A stretch of DNA of 64,000 nt, taken from contig NC_045144.1 in NCBI RefSeq assembly GCF_008831285.2, positions 9,091,886-9,155,885 on the forward strand, read 5' to 3'. The position numbers were made by a program, and so were the translations under genes. The notes beneath the pieces are model-generated. The model was not told the origin of the DNA. It saw only the letters and a list, made by a program, of their open reading frames with translations, and searched no databases. Within the stretch, counting starts at the first letter, position 1. Each line of letters starts with the position of its first letter. Source of the DNA: Nymphaea colorata (taxonomy: Eukaryota; Streptophyta; Magnoliopsida; Nymphaeales; Nymphaeaceae). Below, piece after piece: positions 18,628 to 54,635 of the stretch.

Positions 18628-18632
18628 TATAT

Positions 18633-19108
18633 TGTAAGATCATTTGGTGGGCCGGCATATGTCTATGAGGAATTTCAGACATTATGGCTGTCTTAACGTA
18701 AATATCCGCTTAAGTGATTGCATTTTGGGATATTACGTCATTTTAGATGGTATGGGGTAATTTTGAAATGTATAGATACCGGTACGGAATTACGGACTCT
18801 TTGATGGGTGGAATCCGTAATTGTCTTTATTATAAAATGGTAGTGGTCCCTGGGGTCGTGCAAGGGGTTGCCTGAAACATTGGTTTCTAGGGTTTTCCTC
18901 TTCCCCATCTGAGAGAGAATTCAAGCGCGCCGCACGTACCCTGGAAGACCCTGCTGCGATCTTCCCGTGCACCAGATCAGATGGATTCAGGTACGCTTCC
19001 GCTTCAGTTTAAGGTTTCGTTTATTTCAATGATTTAGCATGAGCATGATCCTGTTTTAGGGTATATACGTTTGGTTTTGTATATGCGTTATGAGGAGAAA
19101 TCCCAACA
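18633..19108 (+). repeat. 5' LTR of copia element A
   Basis: A 476-bp TG...CA repeat, collinear without gaps with 23436-23911. It contains an inverted GGTACGGAATTACGG..CCGTAATTG segment and a TTATAAAA box at about 18829, which could be the TATA element of the promoter. Confidence 0.93.
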
Positions 19109-19110
19109 TT

Positions 19111-19122
19111 TGGTATCAGAGC
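19111..19122 (+). promoter_or_regulatory. Primer binding site (initiator-Met tRNA) of copia A
   Basis: TGGTATCAGAGC sits 2 bp inside the 5' LTR. It is complementary to the 3' end of plant initiator methionine tRNA, the usual copia primer. Confidence 0.9.
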
Positions 19123-22974: not shown

Positions 22975-23435
22975 GGTCTTTTACGAACATGTTGTTCATA
23001 TGGGGGTGTTATCATTGGATGATGTGCTGGTTTAGTGGAAGTTTGTATTTTGTTTGCTCTTATGTATGGACACATATTCAGTTTTCTGCAGAATAAAGTT
23101 TAAAGTTCTTTGGTTCCATTCTCTGTTTATGTGTTAGGTTTTGATCTCCATAAGGTTTTAAAGTTGGACCAGTTGAGAATAGACATGTTGTAATCACATT
23201 ACATGTAATTCTCATGCTATGCATCCATATCAGATCTATGTCATTGATTATGTTAACATTTGTGATCATTGAAGGTTTAGCTAATTTTATTATAGCGAAA
23301 GCCGCTTTGGTTCTGTGTTGATATGGTCATGGACGAGATTGGTGAAAATGACGTTTATAAGATAGTAATTATGAGCTCCTAAGGTTTTATGTAATGTCTG
23401 AATGTATTAAGACATATTTGACCCAAGTGGGAGAT

Positions 23436-23911
23436 TGTAAGATCATTTGGTGGGCCGGCATGTGTCTATGAGGAATTTCAGACATTATGGCTGTCTTAAC
23501 GTAAATATCCGCTTAAGTGATTGCATTTTGGGATATTACGTCATTTTAGATGGTATGGGGTAATTTTGAAATGTATAGATACCGGTACGGAATTACGGAC
23601 TCTTTGATGGGTGGAATCCGTAATTGTCCTTATTATAAAATGGTAGTGGTCCCTGGGGTCGTGCAAGGGGTTGCCTGAAACATTATTTTCTAGGGTTTTC
23701 CTCTTCCCCATCTGAGAGAGACCTCAAGCGCGCCGCACGTACCCTGGAAGACCCTGCTGCGATCTTCCCGTGCACCAGATCAGATAGATTCAGGTACGCT
23801 TCCGCTTCAGTTTAAGGTTTCGTTCATTTCAATGATTTAGCATGAGCATGATCCTGTTTTAGGGTATATATGTTTGGTTTTGTATATGCGTTATGGGGAG
23901 AAATCCCAACA
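23436..23911 (+). repeat. 3' LTR of copia element A
   Basis: A 476-bp partner of 18633-19108, preceded by the polypurine tract AAGTGGGAGA and followed by the target duplication TATAT. Confidence 0.93.
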
Positions 23912-23916
23912 TATAT

Positions 23917-25468
23917 TCCATAGAAGATTGTACAAAGTTGGTATATCCCATCTTTCGGATACGCTCTTGTGCTCGTATGTGCACTCTATACTCTCTCTTT
24001 CAGCAAGAGAGACTGTAAGTTCACCTGGTTCCCATGTAGCTTTAGACCATTGGAATGATACACCCTCCTATAGATGCATCAGCATTTCTTTGTTACACTG
24101 CATAAAGATGTGCTGCTACCTGCTTTCTCTCCTTTATGTCAGCCATGATCGACTATTGTGATGTTTGCACGTCACCAGTAATCGCCGCAGGAGCAATTTC
24201 CATTGTTAAAATGATGGAAATGGTTCAGATCTTTCATTGTGACGCGGTAACCTTGGCAACCAACTTTGTGGCACAAAGGGTTTTTTACGATGCGGATCGT
24301 TGCTCCTGCTGTATGTTAACCATTCCAAAAGCAATGGCCAGCTTCTCACTGTGAGTATTGATATTGTTCGTGTGTATCTCTTATATGAGAGTACCCATAT
24401 TTGGCATTTTTCATTCTTAGGGAACTAGATTTCTCAAGAACATCTACGAAACTAAGAATTTCTTTTGATTCTGGAGGGGAAGTGTAGGAAGCGTCTTCAG
24501 AACATTGATTTTCATTTTTATTGCATCAATCCTTTTGGTTGCCATTGAATTTTCAAAGTGGCATTTGATGGTTTGGAATTTTGATTTAAAAATGAAAATC
24601 CATAATCATAATTCCTCTTCAAATTGGAACAAAATCAAAATTTTAGGTTGGAGTTTCCTAATTTCTGAAACAAAATACCTAGTTTGTTTAATAATTCAAA
24701 TTTCTTAAAAGATGAGCATTTTGATTCTAAAATTTCATGATTCTAGATATATCAAAAGCCCCCTCACAGATGCTGGTTTACCTGAAATATATTTCTTCGT
24801 GGGCATTTGGATGAGACTCCAAAATGCTGTTCTAGAGGCAAAACGTGATGATATTTTTGGATTGTTTAGTGACATCAAAAACTGGGTATCATGAAAAACC
24901 CATATTTGACAAAATGTTGTTTGTTAAAAGGGAGTGAAAAACCTAATCCTCCTCGTGTTCATAAAACACTTGGTTTTGGGTGTGTCACACAAACCAGGTA
25001 CTCAAAACTTATTAAAAAACTCAGTTTTCACAAAATCAAGCTTTTACAAAATTGGGTTAAATGATGGCGTCATCTAAATGCCCCCTTCAGTCGAGGGGCG
25101 GACCCAAGGAGGGGCATGCATGGGCCCTGTCCCCACCTCATTTTTAAAAAAAAAAAAATTACATGTAAATTTTAGAAAATTTTACTTGTCTTATATAAAA
25201 ATTTTCAAAAACGATATTTTGGTCTCTGTTAAACTTTAGAAACTTTAATTTACCCAAAATTTAGAAACTTTAATTCACCACATTTTTGGTCCTCATTAGA
25301 AATAGCCAAATAGGTGTATCAACAACATAGTGCTCGAGGTGGAAGTTTGCCACATGATTTTGAGCTGCTTCGGTGAATTTGGGTTTAAAGAAGAAGGGTT
25401 AGGGAATGACGGTTGGGACTCAGGTCATTTGTGTTCGTTCTGGACATGATGCTATCCCATGAGGGTCT
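23917..25468. other. Intergenic DNA between two copia elements, with a small MITE
   Basis: No gene is recognised. Open frames at 23930-24355 have no family similarity. A MITE-like element occupies 24801-25082, followed at 25095-25145 by GGGGCGGACCC..GGGGCATGCATGGGCCC, which resembles the terminus of a common plant dispersed repeat. Confidence 0.55.
24801..25082. mobile_element. MITE-like element, 282 bp
   Basis: Terminal inverted repeats GGGCATTTGGATGA (24801-24814) and TCATCTAAATGCCC (25069-25082) match at 13 of 14 positions. The interior is AT-rich and non-coding. No convincing target duplication is visible, so the superfamily is open. Confidence 0.6.
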
Positions 25469-25667
25469 TGTAAAGAACCGTGAGGATTGAGAGAGAGAGA
25501 GGGAAAGATTCAGCAAATGAATCACATGTCTGTTTGTTATTGATTATACAAGGTATTTATAGAGTACAAGAAAGATGACGTTACAACAAAAAAGGCAAGA
25601 AATAAAATCGTGTAATCAGATCCTAAATTGATAGTGATTGATACGATTTTATTTCTTGCTGAAATCA
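25469..25667 (-). repeat. 3' LTR of copia element B
   Basis: A 199-bp TG...CA repeat. It contains its own small inverted repeat: a 17-bp arm (GCAAGAAATAAAATCGT) and its complement around a 31-bp loop, at about 25595-25659. The purine run GAATGAGGGAA (minus strand) adjoins it at 25668-25678 and serves as polypurine tract. Confidence 0.88.
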
Positions 25668-25728
25668 TTCCCTCATTCAAGCTCCTTCATGATTCCATGA
25701 TCTTTCCTTGAAGGGGCTCTTTCCTGTT

Positions 25729-27480
25729 TCAAGATCTTTCCTTAACAGCCTCCCGCAAACTGAACGGCGGCTCTATGACGTTGAGGTTGTTTCTAAAATC
25801 TGTGAACACTGTTCCTCCTAGAGCCTTTGTCATTCCATCCGCTAATTGTTCTTTAGTACGAATGAAATTCACTTGGATCTCTCCTTTATTGACATGATCT
25901 CTAACGAAATGAAAATCAATTTCAACATGCTTGGTGCGAGCATGAAACACAGGGTTTGAGGCTAAATATAGAGCTCCTATATTATCACACCATAAAGTTG
26001 GTGCATCTGATAATGGAAACTGTAGCTCTTTCAGGAGAGATTTTAACCATAGTATTTCTGCAGCAGCACAGGCTAGGGACTTGTACTCAGCTTCAGTGCT
26101 GGACCGAGCAACTGTTCTTTGTTTTCTAGAAGCCCATGAGACAACATTATTGCCTAGGAAAGCAACAAAACCTCCGGTCGACTTTCGATCTTCTGGACTA
26201 CCAGCCCAGTCTGCATCAGCAAAAATACTCAATTGCAAAGATGATGATCGAGTCAAGCGAAGGGCATAATGACTGGTTCCTTTTAAATACCGAAGTATTC
26301 TTTTGACCATCGTCCAATGAACAGTCTTTGGCGAGTGCATGAATTGACAAGCGCGATTTACAGCAAATGCAATATCTGGACGTGTGAGAGTAACATATTG
26401 TAGTGCGCCTATTATACTTCGATACATCGTGGGATCCGAAAATAACTGCTCAATGGCTGTAACAGATTTAGTGATCACCAAGGGAGATGTTGTAGGTTTG
26501 GCATTGTCCATTTGAGCTTTGTGAAGAATGTCAATAATGTAACGATGTTGACTCAGATATATCTCCCCAGGCCTTCGCTTGACTTCAATACTTAGGAAAT
26601 AGGTAAGGGGACCAAGATCCTTTACCGAGAATGCAGAGCCAAGCTGTTTAATAATATGAGAAACGAGAGACGGCGCGGATCCGGTGATGATCAAATCATC
26701 TACGTACACAAGAAGAAAAATGTGATTGCCATCGCGAGAGTAAATAAACAGAGATGCATCAGACTGAGAGGCAACAAAGCCAATGTCGCGAAGGAAACAA
26801 CTCAAGCGATGATACCAGGCACGTGGAGCCTGCTTGAGACCATACAAAGCTTTGTCTAGCTTGCATACATGATGAGGATAGGTGGCATCTTGAAACCCCT
26901 CTGGTTGAGCCATATAGACATCTTCAGAAAGAAACCCATTAAGGAAAGCATTATCAAAATCAAGTTGTCGTAATGACCAGTCAAACTGAACAGCTAAAGA
27001 GAGTAGGACTCGGATAGTAGTTGGTTTGACGGTGGGACTGAAAGTTTCTTGATAGTCAATACCAGCCGTTTGAAGAAAACCCCGGGCGACAAGGCGCGCC
27101 TTGTGCCGTGCGATAGAGCCGTCAGGATGACGCTTGAATTTGTACACCCATTTGGAACTGATAATGTTGAAGTCAGGTTGAGGCGGAACGAGATGCCATG
27201 TTTTGTTTTTCTGCAATGCTGAAAATTCTAATTGCATAGCTTGGCGCCAACACGTGGAACGAATAGCCTCTTTAAACGTTCCTGGTTCTTCTTGTTCATG
27301 GATGGCAGAAAAAACTTTGGGTTTTAACGAGCCAGTCATGGAACGAGTGATCATCGAGTGAGAAGGATGCAGAGCATCTTGAGTGGCTGCGACATCAGTA
27401 ACTATGTCCGACGAAGAAGCCGCCAACAGGTCCGACACGGGCAGGCTGATAGGCTCCAGTGAGGACGACGCCAAAGTCAT
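25729..27480 (-). CDS. Copia B reverse transcriptase-RNase H, 583 aa
   Basis: The Ser/Thr-rich linker is followed by WRQAMQLEFSALQKNKTW (start of the RT fold), KARLVARGFLQ, YQETFSPTVKPTTIR, LDFDNAFLNGFLSEDVYM, LYGLKQAPRAWY and the intact catalytic YVDDLIIT at residues 258-265. The RNase H part follows: TRPDIAFAVNRACQFMHSP, LRYLKGTSHY, DADWAGSPEDRKSTGG, ARSSTEAEYKSLA, and TKHVEIDFHFVRDHV with LADGMTKAL near the C-end. The frame is fully open and the active-site residues are present. Its ATG overlaps the stop of the integrase frame by ATGA, so in the ancestral polyprotein this was one continuous frame. Confidence 0.92.
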   Translation of the reverse strand: MTLASSSLEPISLPVSDLLAASSSDIVTDVAATQDALHPSHSMITRSMTGSLKPKVFSAIHEQEEPGTFKEAIRSTCWRQAMQLEFSALQKNKTWHLVPPQPDFNIISSKWVYKFKRHPDGSIARHKARLVARGFLQTAGIDYQETFSPTVKPTTIRVLLSLAVQFDWSLRQLDFDNAFLNGFLSEDVYMAQPEGFQDATYPHHVCKLDKALYGLKQAPRAWYHRLSCFLRDIGFVASQSDASLFIYSRDGNHIFLLVYVDDLIITGSAPSLVSHIIKQLGSAFSVKDLGPLTYFLSIEVKRRPGEIYLSQHRYIIDILHKAQMDNAKPTTSPLVITKSVTAIEQLFSDPTMYRSIIGALQYVTLTRPDIAFAVNRACQFMHSPKTVHWTMVKRILRYLKGTSHYALRLTRSSSLQLSIFADADWAGSPEDRKSTGGFVAFLGNNVVSWASRKQRTVARSSTEAEYKSLACAAAEILWLKSLLKELQFPLSDAPTLWCDNIGALYLASNPVFHARTKHVEIDFHFVRDHVNKGEIQVNFIRTKEQLADGMTKALGGTVFTDFRNNLNVIEPPFSLREAVKERS

Positions 27481-28478
27481 GGTGGGTGTAAGATCCTCAT
27501 AGGCTCCCCTGATGTGGGCTGAGCAGGCCCATGGACGGGCAGGCTGATATGCTCAGAGGAAGAAACCATAGCAGATGATGAAGAACCAATTATTGGTAGT
27601 GGCAGAACAATATACGATGACGACGATGCTGGCTGTAATGGAGCGACGGGACTACTTGAAGGAGAGCTGGTTGTGTGTGGTAGCCAATGCGATACAATAT
27701 CTTCTGAAATAGTCATATGTTGATCGGACTTGCTCGGATGAGTTTCATCAAAAATAACATGCCGAGATATAAAAATACGGCGATGACTCTTGTCATAGCA
27801 TAAATACCCCTTATGATGACTAGCATAACCCAGAAAGATGCATGGAGTGGTCTTGGGCAGAAACTTGGAATCATTCATGGGTGTCAATAATGGATAACAT
27901 GTGGTTCCAAAACCCCGAAGATGTGTATACTCTGGATCTTGATGAAAGAGCATATAAAAGGGTGACTTTCGCTGCAATTTTAGTGTTGGTAATCTATTGA
28001 TAAGATAAATAGCAGTTCGAAAAGAATCATCCCAAAAATTATATGATAAACCGGCATCATAGAGCATACTTAATCCTGTTTCAACAACATGACGATTTTT
28101 GCGTTCAACGATGCCATTTTGTTCGGGAGTGTAAGGACAAGAAAACTGATGAAATATTCCATGTGCTTCACAAAACAAAGCTAAGTCAGAGTTGACAAAT
28201 TCTTTTCCATTATCGGATTGAACGGAACATATGTGAGCATTTAATTGCTTTTCAACCAAGGTTTTGAAATTCTTGAAACATGGAACAACTTCAGACTTAG
28301 CTTTAAGAGGAAACAACCATGAAAATCTGGAATAGTTGTCAACAATAAGAAGAAAAAACTTAAAGCCTTCCCGAGAGAGAATAGGGGCAGGTCCCCATAC
28401 ATCCATATGAAGCATTTCAAGAGGACGTGATGCTTGAAAATCAGAAATTGGAAAGGGTTGTTTATGTGCCTTTCCCAT
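27477..28478 (-). CDS. Copia B integrase, 333 aa open frame
   Basis: It starts inside the pre-integrase zinc region (MGKAHKQPF). The DD35E catalytic triad is intact: D26 (MDVWGP), D89 (QSDNGKEF) and E125 (EQNGIVERKNRH), with exactly 35 residues between the last two. The C-terminal FLGYASHHKGYLCYD and RHVIFDETHP motifs follow, then a Ser/Pro-rich linker. It is in the same frame as the gag ORF upstream, separated by a TAG, and out of frame with RT downstream. The first Met is therefore not a natural start but the first one after the stop. Confidence 0.9.
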   Translation of the reverse strand: MGKAHKQPFPISDFQASRPLEMLHMDVWGPAPILSREGFKFFLLIVDNYSRFSWLFPLKAKSEVVPCFKNFKTLVEKQLNAHICSVQSDNGKEFVNSDLALFCEAHGIFHQFSCPYTPEQNGIVERKNRHVVETGLSMLYDAGLSYNFWDDSFRTAIYLINRLPTLKLQRKSPFYMLFHQDPEYTHLRGFGTTCYPLLTPMNDSKFLPKTTPCIFLGYASHHKGYLCYDKSHRRIFISRHVIFDETHPSKSDQHMTISEDIVSHWLPHTTSSPSSSPVAPLQPASSSSYIVLPLPIIGSSSSAMVSSSEHISLPVHGPAQPTSGEPMRILHPP

Positions 28479-28487
28479 AAGACAAGA

Positions 28488-29999
28488 CTAACAAACTCCT
28501 TTCTGAATAGGAGAATTTATTGAAATGAACTGACTAGAGTTTAGAAAGCTAACAATCTTCTTGTTTGCATGACCAAGCCGCCGATGCCATAGATCAAATG
28601 ACGCTGAAGGTTTATTGACGCCTATTGGAAACCAGCAACTAAACGCTGCCCCCTTGGTTGAAGATGACTCAATGTTTGATCGGACAGCCTTGATGGGGTA
28701 GAGCCCGTTACGCATCTTTGGTCCTTGAAGAAGAACCTTGCCCGTCTGTCGATCCTTAATAATAAAATCATGTGGTGAGAATTGAAAAATACAATCATTT
28801 TCAGACGTAAATTTTCCCACTGATAAGAGATTATGAGCTATTTTAGGAACATGCAAGGCATTAGTAAGTTTGAATGAAGTCCCTTCAGAATTAACTAATA
28901 AATTGCGTGTATGCTTAATAGAAAGGCTTAAACCATTACCAATCATGATATTGTCTCTTCCATCACATGGTGTTTTGTTTTGCATCATCTCATCACTGTT
29001 GACAATATGATTAGTCACTCCCGAGTCGGGATACCAATATTCACTTGTAGACTCCTGTAGGTTCATGGCTGAAAATGCCCGCGGGATATCATAACATGTC
29101 CTTGCCGAATGACCCTTCCGTCCGCAATATTGACACGTTACGATAGGTCGAGAATGACTTCCATTTCCTGCATTGTTGTTTGGATGTTCATGCTGTGGTT
29201 GAGGCTGGAGAGGAGGTTGTCTTCCTCGTCCTTGGAATCGACCTCCTTGCCGACCCCTAAAGTTGCCTCGACCTCTAGCGCGTCCTCGAAAAGTATTAAA
29301 GGCAACTTGATTTTCAGCCTGTGGTAATGCCTGAATGGATCTGTTAGAGTTGGACATTGACGATTTGAACATCTCAAGTCTCTTCTCTAGAGTGAGTAAG
29401 AGATCGAATAATTCAGAAAATGTAATTGAGACATTTGAAGAGTTAGCACTAATGAGAGTAATAAAACTTTCATATTCAATAGGCAAACCGTTCATCGTGA
29501 TCTGAACAAGATCACTGTCGTCCGTGTCTATTCCCGCCGCAGCTAACGTATCTGCAAGGAACTTGATCCGTTCCAGATATGTGTGCATATCCATATTTCC
29601 TTTTTGAATGAAGTGTAGTTCCTTCCTCAACAACATTATTCTCAATGGTGATTGAGAACCGAAGGACTTTTTCAGCGTTTTCCATGCTTCATGTGCTGAT
29701 TTGCTAGACACGATTTGCCTCAGGACTGGTTCTGAAACAGTGGCTTTGATCCAACTTAAAGCCAGACGATCGGACTTCTTCCAGATAGCAAAATCTGGAT
29801 TAACTTCATTTTTACCGTCCTTCATAATAATCTCTGGAGGAGGAGGAAGCGTCCCATCAATGAACTGTACAAGTTCTTGGGACTCCATGACTGATTCCAG
29901 TTGACTGTTCCATAGAAGATAATTGTCTCTTGTGAGTTTGACGGAGACAAGCGCGGAGATCGCGTTCCATTGTGTTGACAAAGAAGATGAGTTTGCCAT
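28488..29999 (-). CDS. Copia B gag, protease and pre-integrase, 503 aa
   Basis: The N-terminal gag domain carries LTRDNYLLWNSQLESVM. A Gly/Arg-rich stretch (RGRARGRGNFRGRQGGR) precedes the zinc knuckle CQYCGRKGHSARTC (about residue 286). The aspartic protease region reads WYPDSGVTNHI (about residue 320), with Val where DSGA is usual. The pre-integrase motif LWHRRLGHANKKIV follows. The frame ends at an in-frame TAG (28488-28490) in the middle of the pre-integrase zinc motif. The ATG at 29997-29999 is the natural polyprotein start. Confidence 0.9.
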   Translation of the reverse strand: MANSSSLSTQWNAISALVSVKLTRDNYLLWNSQLESVMESQELVQFIDGTLPPPPEIIMKDGKNEVNPDFAIWKKSDRLALSWIKATVSEPVLRQIVSSKSAHEAWKTLKKSFGSQSPLRIMLLRKELHFIQKGNMDMHTYLERIKFLADTLAAAGIDTDDSDLVQITMNGLPIEYESFITLISANSSNVSITFSELFDLLLTLEKRLEMFKSSMSNSNRSIQALPQAENQVAFNTFRGRARGRGNFRGRQGGRFQGRGRQPPLQPQPQHEHPNNNAGNGSHSRPIVTCQYCGRKGHSARTCYDIPRAFSAMNLQESTSEYWYPDSGVTNHIVNSDEMMQNKTPCDGRDNIMIGNGLSLSIKHTRNLLVNSEGTSFKLTNALHVPKIAHNLLSVGKFTSENDCIFQFSPHDFIIKDRQTGKVLLQGPKMRNGLYPIKAVRSNIESSSTKGAAFSCWFPIGVNKPSASFDLWHRRLGHANKKIVSFLNSSQFISINSPIQKGVC

Positions 30000-30541: not shown

Positions 30542-30553
30542 GCTCTGATACCA
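30542..30553 (-). promoter_or_regulatory. Primer binding site (initiator-Met tRNA) of copia B
   Basis: On the minus strand TGGTATCAGAGC directly follows the ...TTTACA end of the upstream LTR. This fixes the element's orientation and the LTR edge at 30554. Confidence 0.92.
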
Positions 30554-30857
30554 TGTAAAGATCCGTGAGGATTGAGAGAGAGAGAGAAAGATTCAGCAAA
30601 TGAATCACATGTCTGTTTGTTATTGATTATACAAGGTATTTATAGAGTACAAGAAAGATGACGTTACAACAAAAAAGGCAAGAAATAAAATCGTGTAATC
30701 AGATCCTAAATTGATAGTGATTGATACGATTTTATTTCTTGCTTTTTTTGTTGTAACGTCATCTTTCTTGTACTCTATAAATACCTTGTATAATCAATAA
30801 CAAACATGCATTTGCTGAATCTTTCTCTCTCTCTCTCAATCCTCACGGATCTTTACA
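30554..30857 (-). repeat. Hairpin-converted 5' LTR of copia B (304-bp palindrome)
   Basis: Arm 1 is 30554-30694, the 31-bp spacer 30695-30725, and arm 2 30726-30857. Arm 2 is the reverse complement of arm 1 apart from one 9-bp deletion and about two single-base differences. Both outer ends read TGTAAAGATCC. Arm 1 plus spacer plus the first 17 bases of arm 2 match the 3' LTR; the normal outer end TGATTTCAGC is missing and replaced by the inverted copy. Confidence 0.95.
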
Positions 30858-32750
30858 ATAAAGGTTGAGGGCCTACCTCTCCACAGGTTTTCACCACAAC
30901 AACATAGTGCGTGAGGAAGTTTTTCACGAGCATCGCACAACAAATTATTTAAATTCTATGTCCATATGAATTTCATGTGTGTGTGAACGAACAACAGTAG
31001 TTATGTAGTAATCTTTTGATGCTTTTGGTCTGAATGCCTTTGATAGATTAACTTCTCCTAATTAATGGTCATAAAACATCATTGTTGATAGATAGTATGG
31101 GGCGGAGCCACATCCACATGTGGGCATGTGCGGGCAATTGCCCATGCAGTCCGATAGAAATCGCCTTATTTATTTATAGAGTAAGCGCTCCTCAGCCAAA
31201 TATGTCTGTCTCCACCACTTTGGATAGCATTTCTTCAATTGCTTGTTGCAGCTCCTGTGATGAGCAGTGGTAGAGGCAATGCTTCTTGTGGTTTAGACTT
31301 CAGGTGAAAGGGAATGGAATTCATTCGTATGATGGATGGCTTGTACTTTGCATTTTAGGCATTCAGTAATACCTGATCTGCTAATAATGACTACAATATT
31401 TAGATTGTGGAAATAAAACCAATTTTTAGTCTACAAAATTTTCAGTTAACCTTGGACCATGTTGATGTGCATAACATTGGGTGAGTGTGCGAAACTCCTT
31501 GTTGGATGTTGAGATCTGATCACCACGGACATGTTTCCAAGCCATTGTGGTGCTTGGTGCCGCTGCTCTGCCTTCTTCCACTATCTCACATTTGTCAACC
31601 TCTCTTTTTCTCTCCCTTCATGGGCAATCAGTCATCCAACCAAAATCGTCCATGTAAAACCAATGAATGGTTGATAAAAAAAAAAAAAGAGAAAAAGTTG
31701 TAAAATAATACTAAGATAACGTGAATGCCAATCACTTTTGTTTTTTATTTTTTTCTTAGTTGTCCATCGTATTGGATTAGATAGTGCAGATTAAATTAAA
31801 TGACTAAATGACTTTGAAAAACTAAAGTCACTATTCAAATTTATTTTACACATATATATATATATATACTTTTATATAATTTTTATTATAAATATATGTT
31901 TAGATATTAAATTTATATAATTGAAATATTTCTTATTAAGTGAGGTTGGATTGGATTAAACTTTCATGCTTAGGCCTAACTTTGAATGCTTGGAGTCTTT
32001 TGAAAAATGCTGCCATTTTTTCTGCTCATTTTTCATTTTTTGATAAGATGGAACACGTGTGTCATAGATATCTTCATACCCGTTGATTCTTTCTGTCAAT
32101 ATCAAACACTACTCCGTAAAAAAAAAAAAAAACAAAGCCCGTTTTAGGGGGCCTGATAATCGGGCCGACTCGCTCGATAAAGAGTTGGGCACTTGGGCTC
32201 TACTTGAGTTGCAGCTCGTAACTGTGGCTCGGTCTTTGAGTCGACACTCGAAACCCAAACCGTAGCTCAACTCAATTAAAATTAAAAATATATATTTTTA
32301 AAATAAAATAATAAATAAATAAAATTAATTATAATAAAAAATATATATATATATATATATTAATGAAACAAGCCGTGCTTTTTTTTAGGTCGGTACCCGG
32401 ACTCGAGTCGAACCGGGTATCTACCCGGTCCGATGCCCATACTGGTGGGTCCCATCTCCTCCTTTTTGTTCGTCTAGTGTTTCTCCTGCTTCGGTTGCTT
32501 CCTCCATTTTTGTGGCACTCAAATGTTTGGAGTTATCTGGTGTTTCAGCATGCTTGACCGACCAACAGGCTTCCCCCGCATCCTTCTCCGGAAGGAACAG
32601 AAGATGCGAGGACGATGCTAAAGGGAAGGGGCGCTGTTCTCTTGACGGCTGCCTCTCTTGAGATCAATGATTCATGCAGACTAAGGCTTTAATTTCCTGA
32701 GGAGCGAGGAAAACTTTTCTTGGTGGTTTTGTGTTCTTCGAAAGGAAACG
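30858..32750. other. Intergenic region upstream of ClpF
   Basis: No gene is seen. It holds a segment at 31095-31150 (GGGCGGAGCC..TGTGGGCATGTGCGGGCAATTGCCC) that looks like a dispersed-repeat terminus, an AT-rich zone with (AT)n at about 31852-31868, and a repeat with GC-rich arms and an AT core at 32140-32430. The last 300 bp, richer in C and T, should contain the ClpF promoter and 5' UTR. No clear TATA box was identified. Confidence 0.5.
32140..32430. mobile_element. Second copy of the GC-arm/AT-core repeat
   Basis: The left arm has GGGGGCCTGATAATCGGGCC and ACTCGAAACCC words, then about 100 bp of only A and T (32280-32361), then a right arm with GGTACCCGGACTCGAGTCGAACCGGG. The layout parallels 13214-13540 but the arms are more diverged. 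Confidence 0.45.
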
Positions 32751-52538: not shown

Positions 52539-54635
52539 TCATATTTGTATAAGTATTTAGTGCTTTTATTTTTTTCTTTCTGTATCTTGATTTTTACTTG
52601 TTTAGTTGTTTATGACTTGTGAGAAATTTAGTCTTTATGTTGGAAGGTTTATTTAGAAGTTATATTGAAGTTATTTAGAAATCAAGATACAAAATTTTTT
52701 TTCATTAAATCCCCTCATTAACACAGTCTGTATGTAGTAGGTTCAGTAATGGCTCTCTATCTCTCTCTTACCTTTTATTATGCCTCTTTTTTGGTTAAGC
52801 TTCATTATTATAGCATTAAATATATCATTATCATTCATTATTACGGCATCTTTATTATTATTGTACTAAATATACAGTTAACCTTCATTATTCATTTATA
52901 GCATTAAATAGTATGTGTTGAAAAATATAAAATAAGCAGAATAAATAAAAAAAGGCAATGAAAAATTTATTTTCATTAAATGTGCATGTTTTTTCACCAT
53001 GGAAGGCCATCATGAGCCTTGGTTATTCAAATTCAAAAGAAATAGATAGGTGACACTCTTATAATCTTGGCATCCATTTGATGATAAACATGAGAAACTA
53101 AATTTGATTTTGTGAAAAGATTTTATTTTCCTTTATCATTTACCTTTGATTTTCTTTTATGGGTTTCTTTCCTTGAATCTCTTTAGAAGCGGTTGCCTTT
53201 CAACCTTATCATCAACACATCCTCCCTCAAACTTGACGATGGATCTGAAAGTCCAAGTTTGCTGGAGAACTTTGTAAGCCGATCATTCCATCTCTTTGGT
53301 GGTGATTCGGCAAGCCCAATTTTGTTTCATGAAGTTTTTCTTCAACATGATCAAGTCCTTGCTTTGATGACGAAGGCAGGGACCTCTTTGGTCGTTTACA
53401 GATAATCTTTAAGATTCGATCTTCTTCGACAACCATCTTACTTTGATATCATGTGGAAAAAATATAAAATAAGCAGAATAAATAAGAAAAGGCAATGGAA
53501 AGTTTATTTTCATTAAACATGTATGGTTTTTCACCCTGGAAGGCCATCAAGAGCGTTGGTTATACAATGCAAATGAAAGAGCTTAAATCGGTGACATTCC
53601 CATAATCTTGGCATCCATTTGATGATAAACATGGGAAACTAAATATGATTTGTGGAAAGATTTTCTTTCTCTTTATCATTTAATTTTGATTTATCCTGCT
53701 GGGATTCTTTCCTTGAATTTTTTTAGAAACGGTTGACTTTCAACCTTACCATTAATCCTTCCTCAAACTTGACGATAGATCTGAAAGTCCAAGTTTGCTG
53801 GAGAACTTTGTAAGTGGATCATTCCATCTCTTTGGTGGTGATTTGGCGAGCCCAATTTTGTTTCATGAAGTTTTTCTTTAACAAGATCAAGTCATCGCTT
53901 TGATGAAGAAGGCAAGGATCTCTTTGGTCGTCTACAGACCATCTTTGGGCTTCGATCTTCTTCGACAACCATTCGACTCTGATACCTTGTTGGAAAAATA
54001 TAAATTAAGTAGAATAAATAAAAAAAAGGCACATTAAATGTGTGTGGTTTTTCACCATGAAAGGCCATCATGAGCCTTGATTATACAATGCAAATCAAAG
54101 AGCTTAAATAAGTGACATTCCCATAATCTTGGCATCCATTTGGCGATAAACATGGAAAACTAAATATGATTATGTGGAAAGATTTTTTTTCTTTATCATT
54201 TAATTTTGATTATCTTGTTGAGATTCTTTTCTTGAATCTCTTTAGAAACAGTTGCTTTTCAACTATGCATAGCCATGGTATATACACAGTAAGTATAAAA
54301 AAAACCCTCAGTTTTGAAAAAAAAAAGACTGTCAACTTTGACTAAGTCTTAAAATAGATGGTTCCTAGATACAAGAGTCAAGACCATACTCCGTACGATT
54401 TTGACTGTGCCATACCCACCAGTGTACTGGTCCCCGTATGGGTACCATACCGGGTTGGTATCGGTACTGCTCCCTTGTGACATAGGTTGGTTTGGTTACC
54501 TAGGATATAGGGGTGCCAAGGCTTGGATACCAAATAAGGAGAGACAGACAGAGGAAGAGATACACACAAAGATTTGAGGGGTGATCGGTGGAGGAGGAGG
54601 AGATACATATGAAGGACTTGTGGTTGCACAACTTT

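Follow-up and report, generated by a model that had tools for sequence, protein, structure and literature searches.

Layout of copia B and extent of its LTRs

The window, by which we mean the whole stretch of 64,000 nucleotides analysed here, contains a copia-type element (copia B) whose gag, integrase and reverse-transcriptase domains (Retrotran_gag_2, rve and RVT_2) are found on the minus strand in copia order. The three open frames that encode them are broken from one another, as judged from their coordinates, by a stop and then by a frame change. The primer binding site, TGGTATCAGAGC, which we take to be a match to the initiator tRNA, shows that the 5' LTR has its inner U5 edge at position 30554 and the 3' LTR its outer one at position 25469. 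The features of the element outside its 5' LTR are as follows:

25469..25747, minus strand: intact 3' LTR with the native 17-bp inverted repeat (placed by similarity among relatives)
25748..25756, minus strand: purine-rich stretch adjoining the U3 edge, presumably polypurine-tract-like (related 3' LTRs have the same or nearly the same stretch beside their inner U3 edge)
25729..29999, minus strand: coding region, in three open frames
25729-27480, minus strand: reverse transcriptase frame (RVT_2)
27477-28478, minus strand: integrase frame (rve)
28488-29999, minus strand: gag/protease-like frame (Retrotran_gag_2)
30542..30553, minus strand: primer binding site TGGTATCAGAGC (sequence match)

The sequence-only reading had placed the partner LTR at 25469-25667 (199 bp), which is wrong; the actual LTR spans 25469-25747 and is 279 bp long. 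In an alignment of 20 LTR regions fetched from relatives, similarity passes 25667 and reaches TTAACA at 25747, where GCCTCCCGC follows. Across the relatives the LTR ends in TTAACA or a near variant that adjoins GCCTCCCGC (26 of 27 loci, some of them overlapping; the motif has no match in L019). In the 5' LTR, native sequence covers 30554-30742, up to where the native 17-bp repeat ends, and 88 bp of U3 are missing when it is measured against the 3' LTR. The same U5 terminus is present at both ends of the element, as had been proposed, but the missing part of U3 is these 88 bp and not a few terminal bases.

Copia B is a copia-derived element and no intact member of the copia LTR retrotransposons. 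It shares with them the LTRs, the tRNA-type primer site and the gag-integrase-reverse transcriptase order, with the integrase upstream of the reverse transcriptase and both the gag and the reverse transcriptase of copia type. Unlike usual copia elements, it has as one LTR a U5/U5 hairpin without 88 bp of U3, and it has no target duplication. In place of two complete direct LTRs there is a whole 3' LTR and a 5' LTR that has lost its U3 end and carries an inverted U5 end, and in place of a 5-bp duplication the flanks read GGTCT and ATAAA.

A second copia-like element, copia A, has LTRs at 18631-18930 and 23434-23733 that are 98% alike over 300 nt, and a plus-strand primer site at 19111. Positions 52970-54171 of the window are occupied by tandem-like repeats, whose period is approximately 520-540 bp.

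The palindromic 5' LTR and the origin of its outer arm

The assembled sequence contains a 304-base palindrome at 30554-30857, with TGTAAAGATCC at both outer ends. Its parts are:

30554..30694, minus strand: arm 1 (141 nt), comprising U5, R and part of U3 of the 5' LTR, the putative template of the copy (arm alignment)
30695..30725, minus strand: 31-nt loop in native sequence and orientation (arm alignment)
30726-30857: arm 2 (132 nt) (arm alignment)
30726..30742, minus strand: second half of the native 17-bp inverted repeat, the last native piece of the 5' LTR
30743..30756, no strand assigned: TTTTTTTGTTGTAA, start of the inverted copy (14/14 against the target in the C4 paralog, 13/14 against the LTR)
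30757..30849, plus strand: inverted copy of arm 1 with no target counterpart, 9 nt fewer than in arm 1
30850..30857, plus strand: TCTTTACA, the U5 edge (7/8 against TCTTGACA of the C4 paralog, just before ATAAAGG)

Arms, loop and outer ends all lie where the sequence-only reading had put them. Folded as DNA, the palindrome reaches -147 kcal/mol against a shuffle mean of -25.3 (sd 3.5), an energy attained by none of 100 shuffles. It ends at the LTR edge, with pairing at only 1 of the next 12 positions. The arms differ solely in one stem-end base and in 9 nt, placed as 5+4, that arm 2 lacks; beyond the native stem the copied part of arm 2 is 115 nt long. It is extremely unlikely that the structure is an assembly or read artefact derived from a fold-back read, from which equal arms and random ends would be expected; the arms here are unequal, and outside the palindrome the target runs on as in its paralogs.

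The idea that other copies of the element might carry the same hairpin did not hold within the 407.8 Mb of genome searched, as the junction is present once at three or fewer mismatches, a pattern that more diverged copies could escape. The whole 304-base sequence used as a query was matched on both strands only at its own site in the window (32 candidates scored).

The native 17-bp inverted repeat also folds in the intact partner LTR, in agreement with the earlier reading. From the alignments, the outer arm is the copy, and the loop and inner arm are native. The closest of the 22 LTR sequences aligned with arm 2 is arm 1, with 4 differing columns that are partly gap-derived, compared to 6 differences from the 3' LTR and 10 plus 2 gaps from the best other copy, L010. 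The arms also have AGATCC and the length of a GA run in common, unlike the 3' LTR. The proposal of a snap-back from the native inverted repeat gains support from this proximity of the two arms and from the native loop beside arm 1. Features expected of template switching are accordingly present in the sequence itself: a prior 17-bp inverted repeat at the fold and a new arm that is a copy of the nearby one.

The earlier reading had named a second LTR in inverse orientation as its main alternative, in which copia B would have inserted at GGTCT and a solo LTR approximately 36 bp to the right, the two being fused by an inverted-repeat deletion. This would account for two exact outer LTR edges, and the solo LTR could have ATAAA as its duplication on the right. 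However, apart from copia B's own LTRs no sequence among the matches listed exceeds 94% identity, yet arm 2 equals arm 1 save for the junction base and the 9-nt gap, and the target homology at the ends of the copy (described below) would be left unexplained. No reciprocal U3-U3 palindrome was found at three or fewer mismatches, although a simple deletion would leave none. We consider such a double insertion very improbable. A chromosome inversion between two copies was rejected for want of the reciprocal palindrome, of which a lost or more diverged example is possible.

The polarity of the two differences that set the 3' LTR apart from the arms was also considered. The 3' LTR has the state AACC in common with the C9 pair and the arms have ATCC in common with C1, which is the closest of the three internal relatives compared (96.3%, against 93.1% for C9 and 91.1% for the third). 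Since both states occur among the relatives, these differences give no date for the hairpin.

The target site and its homology to the ends of the copy

The flanks of copia B represent two parts of one target sequence:

25338..25468, plus strand: left part of the target, probably a LINE-type tail, ending in GGTCT (paralog alignment)
30858..30896, plus strand: right part of the target, starting with ATAAAGG, its right end approximate (paralog alignment)

Both parts are found in one piece in two paralogs, L040 on C4 and L041 on C14, which were located via the left flank. Between GGTCT (GTTCT in L041) and ATAAAG these contain 36 bp and 35 bp, respectively, that are absent from the window. If the original target resembled its paralogs, approximately 36 bp would have been lost at copia B relative to these empty sites. 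Used as a query, L040 gave 30 matches, which include the right flank of copia B in the window as well as the C4 site; 12 of the 30 were made into loci and aligned as one repeat family. GTTGTA occurs at the corresponding place in 11 of these 12 loci (the exception being L045), and the full TTTTTTTGTTGTAA is present in three, namely L042 (the C4 site itself), L044 and L053. The target is probably the tail of a LINE, because in repeat copy L048 a frame with a LINE-type zf-RVT domain lies just upstream. Just left of the target, positions 25094-25251 form a piece of a high-copy repeat, for which a first look gave 2139 candidates; 40 were scored, most of them matching here.

No target duplication is present at copia B, where GGTCT on the left faces ATAAA on the right. 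Duplications of 5 bp flank five of six related full elements (AAGAC, CGGAG, ATCCC, ACAAG and ACAAG), or four of five if the two ACAAG cases, which appear to go back to a single insertion within a duplicated segment, are counted once. They also flank all three solo LTRs (GTTCA, CTTAT and CTCCC). These counts refer to elements in which both outer edges were read; L014, L017, L022, L025 and L029, whose partners were not fetched, are uncounted. The ACAAG elements (L018/L019 and L020/L021) are located on C7 at about 24.62 and 23.23 Mb, in opposite orientation and with similar flanks, and look like a single insertion carried by a C7 segmental duplication. One relative, L026/L027 (C10:12823676-12828792), has no matching 5-bp target duplication. 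A longer imperfect duplication at copia B, with TGAGGGTCT on the left and TGAGGGCCT on the right, was rejected, since in the C4 paralog both words are present although nothing is inserted between them. A 29-bp likeness of the left and right flanks (CAACAACATAGTGC) is weak, as 28 of 2000 random pairs score equally high.

In the C4 paralog the counterpart of the lost target reads GAAG-TTTTTTTGTTGTAA-TTAGCTATTT-TCTTGACA, followed by ATAAAGG. The inverted copy in copia B opens with TTTTTTTGTTGTAA directly after the stem, matching the C4 target at 14 of 14 positions, and closes with TCTTTACA before ATAAAGG. The LTR version of the opening sequence, CTTTTTTGTTGTAA, is one base off TTTTTTTGTTGTAA, and this base is the sole substitution between the arms; at the stem end, a T native to the LTR and a T from the target fit equally well. 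In L041, which ranks second in closeness among the paralogs, the opening homology covers 11 bp instead of 14. The closing sequence, at which template switching would be expected to show return-point homology, matches 7/8 both against TCTTGACA in L040 and against TCTTTGCA in L041, and is weaker in more distant repeat copies.

In a control of 141,274 positions, taken from both strands with the paralogs and the element left out, TTTTTTTGTTGTAA was found at no position at one or fewer mismatches and TCTTTACA at 97; within the window, TTTTTTTGTTGTAA occurs at this stringency only in copia B. This control is preferred over a looser first one, because the pool of the latter held both paralogs; the CT run was also kept in. 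In that first control 15 of 2,962 random 36-base segments share at least 13 bases with any part of arm 2, a match of at least 13 to the start of the copy occurs in 9 of 39,515 segments, and the closing match in 19 of 39,515. These tests were framed after the matches had been seen. Homology of the target to both ends of the copy, although noticed after the fact, tends to argue against a pre-integration cDNA hairpin, which would be an event independent of the target.

Proposed fold-back copying at the chromosomal target

The sequence-only reading had taken the precise end of arm 2 at the LTR edge to indicate an event on cDNA before integration. This is not upheld, given the missing target duplication, the loss of approximately 36 bp of target and the target homology at both ends. 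As the lost target is homologous to both ends of the copy, the stop of arm 2 at the LTR edge can have been set by the target, and the bracketing homology makes it most likely that the snap-back took place in contact with chromosomal target DNA. We therefore propose that the hairpin probably arose at or after integration, through a copying error of the repair type.

An ordinary copia element would have inserted after GGTCT in the LINE tail, presumably with a duplication, and the boundary between 5' LTR and target would have been re-made by chromosomal template switching, either later or during completion of the insertion. The strand with the native 17-bp repeat would fold onto arm 1 and copy it outward to the U5 edge, after which a microhomology (TCTT.ACA before ATAAAGG) would let the copied strand rejoin the target. 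The remaining U3, the target duplication and approximately 36 bp of target would be lost in the process. In the C4 paralog TTTTTTTGTTGTAA, which matches the LTR in inverted orientation, lies 4 bp beyond the point of insertion, and this sequence in the target probably aided the fold or the switch. The target T7GTTGTAA may have served as the second fold arm, if the deletion came first and a longer hairpin was extended, or the native repeat may have acted alone. With chromosomal copying, the exact end at the LTR edge becomes a coincidence in the position of the microhomology, estimated very roughly at 1 in 140, and a copy of 115 nt is long for the fold-back class.

An error of reverse transcription would avoid this coincidence. 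During completion of the 5' LTR, the 3' end of the minus strand could leave its template at the native repeat and copy the displaced 5' end of that strand, which ends exactly at the U5 edge. The resulting U5/U5 cDNA would then enter a chromosome break through microhomology end joining, without normal integrase joining and with no target duplication. Such capture accounts for the missing duplication and the 36-bp deletion, and the extra T at the stem end would be the next native LTR base. The displaced 5' end has to be the template because a strand copying itself would run into the primer binding site. For this reason a plain snap-back on its own strand was rejected as a cDNA event, as beyond U5 the template goes on into the primer binding site whereas the copy stops; a self-primed hairpin used as plus-strand strong-stop DNA was likewise rejected, since it predicts an inverse loop beside the primer site, where the loop is native. 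Capture of an aberrant cDNA nevertheless requires two rare events and leaves the 14-bp target match at the start of arm 2 to chance (none of 141,274 positions at one or fewer mismatches), and a second hairpin junction is absent from the genome at three or fewer mismatches. We regard it as unlikely.

Copying in the chromosome is a mechanism of a known kind in an unusual setting, namely a long instance at the edge of a retrotransposon. Two reports describe quasi-palindrome mutations that extend the identity between imperfect arms (PMC3820800) and template-switch mutations that can create hairpins (PMC8794818). As in copia B, copying of one arm onto the other in a single event lengthens an imperfect inverted repeat and makes it nearly perfect (PMC3820800, PMC8794818), but the template-switch cases described are shorter, with stems that range from a few bases to tens (PMC8794818), whereas the tract in copia B runs 115 nt past the stem and replaces an LTR end and flanking target. 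In yeast, fold-back inverted insertions are described at double-strand breaks, mostly of about 5-34 bp; an end primes itself via a short inverted repeat whose halves are separated by a loop (41 nt in one case, compared to 31 here), and end joining connects the other end, as proposed for copia B (PMC11724301). Unlike these, copia B is a natural case in a plant, at a retrotransposon edge and with 115 nt copied past the stem. Pol theta combines stem-loop extension with end joining and extends certain mismatched ends relatively efficiently, which resembles stem-loop synthesis followed by microhomology joining as read here (PMC11292364). That work used the purified human enzyme (PMC11292364), and the copia B sequence points to no particular polymerase. 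Tandem LTR elements of plants are a different structure (PMC11899658). We found no account of an LTR turned into a hairpin among the titles and abstract openings listed, which covered few subscription journals, so that its absence from the literature is unproven.

Copia B offers a clean natural case in which fold-back copying made an LTR into a long palindrome, at a target whose dispersed repeat allows the lost sequence to be inferred. It also serves as a warning that a palindrome stopping exactly at an LTR edge is no proof of an event at the cDNA stage. Hairpins of this kind could seed breakage or double-stranded RNA. The TATA-like sequence CTATAAATA is found in both arms, at 30638-30646 and 30775-30783, directed inward to the element and outward to the flank, and the hairpin LTR may represent a putative divergent promoter.
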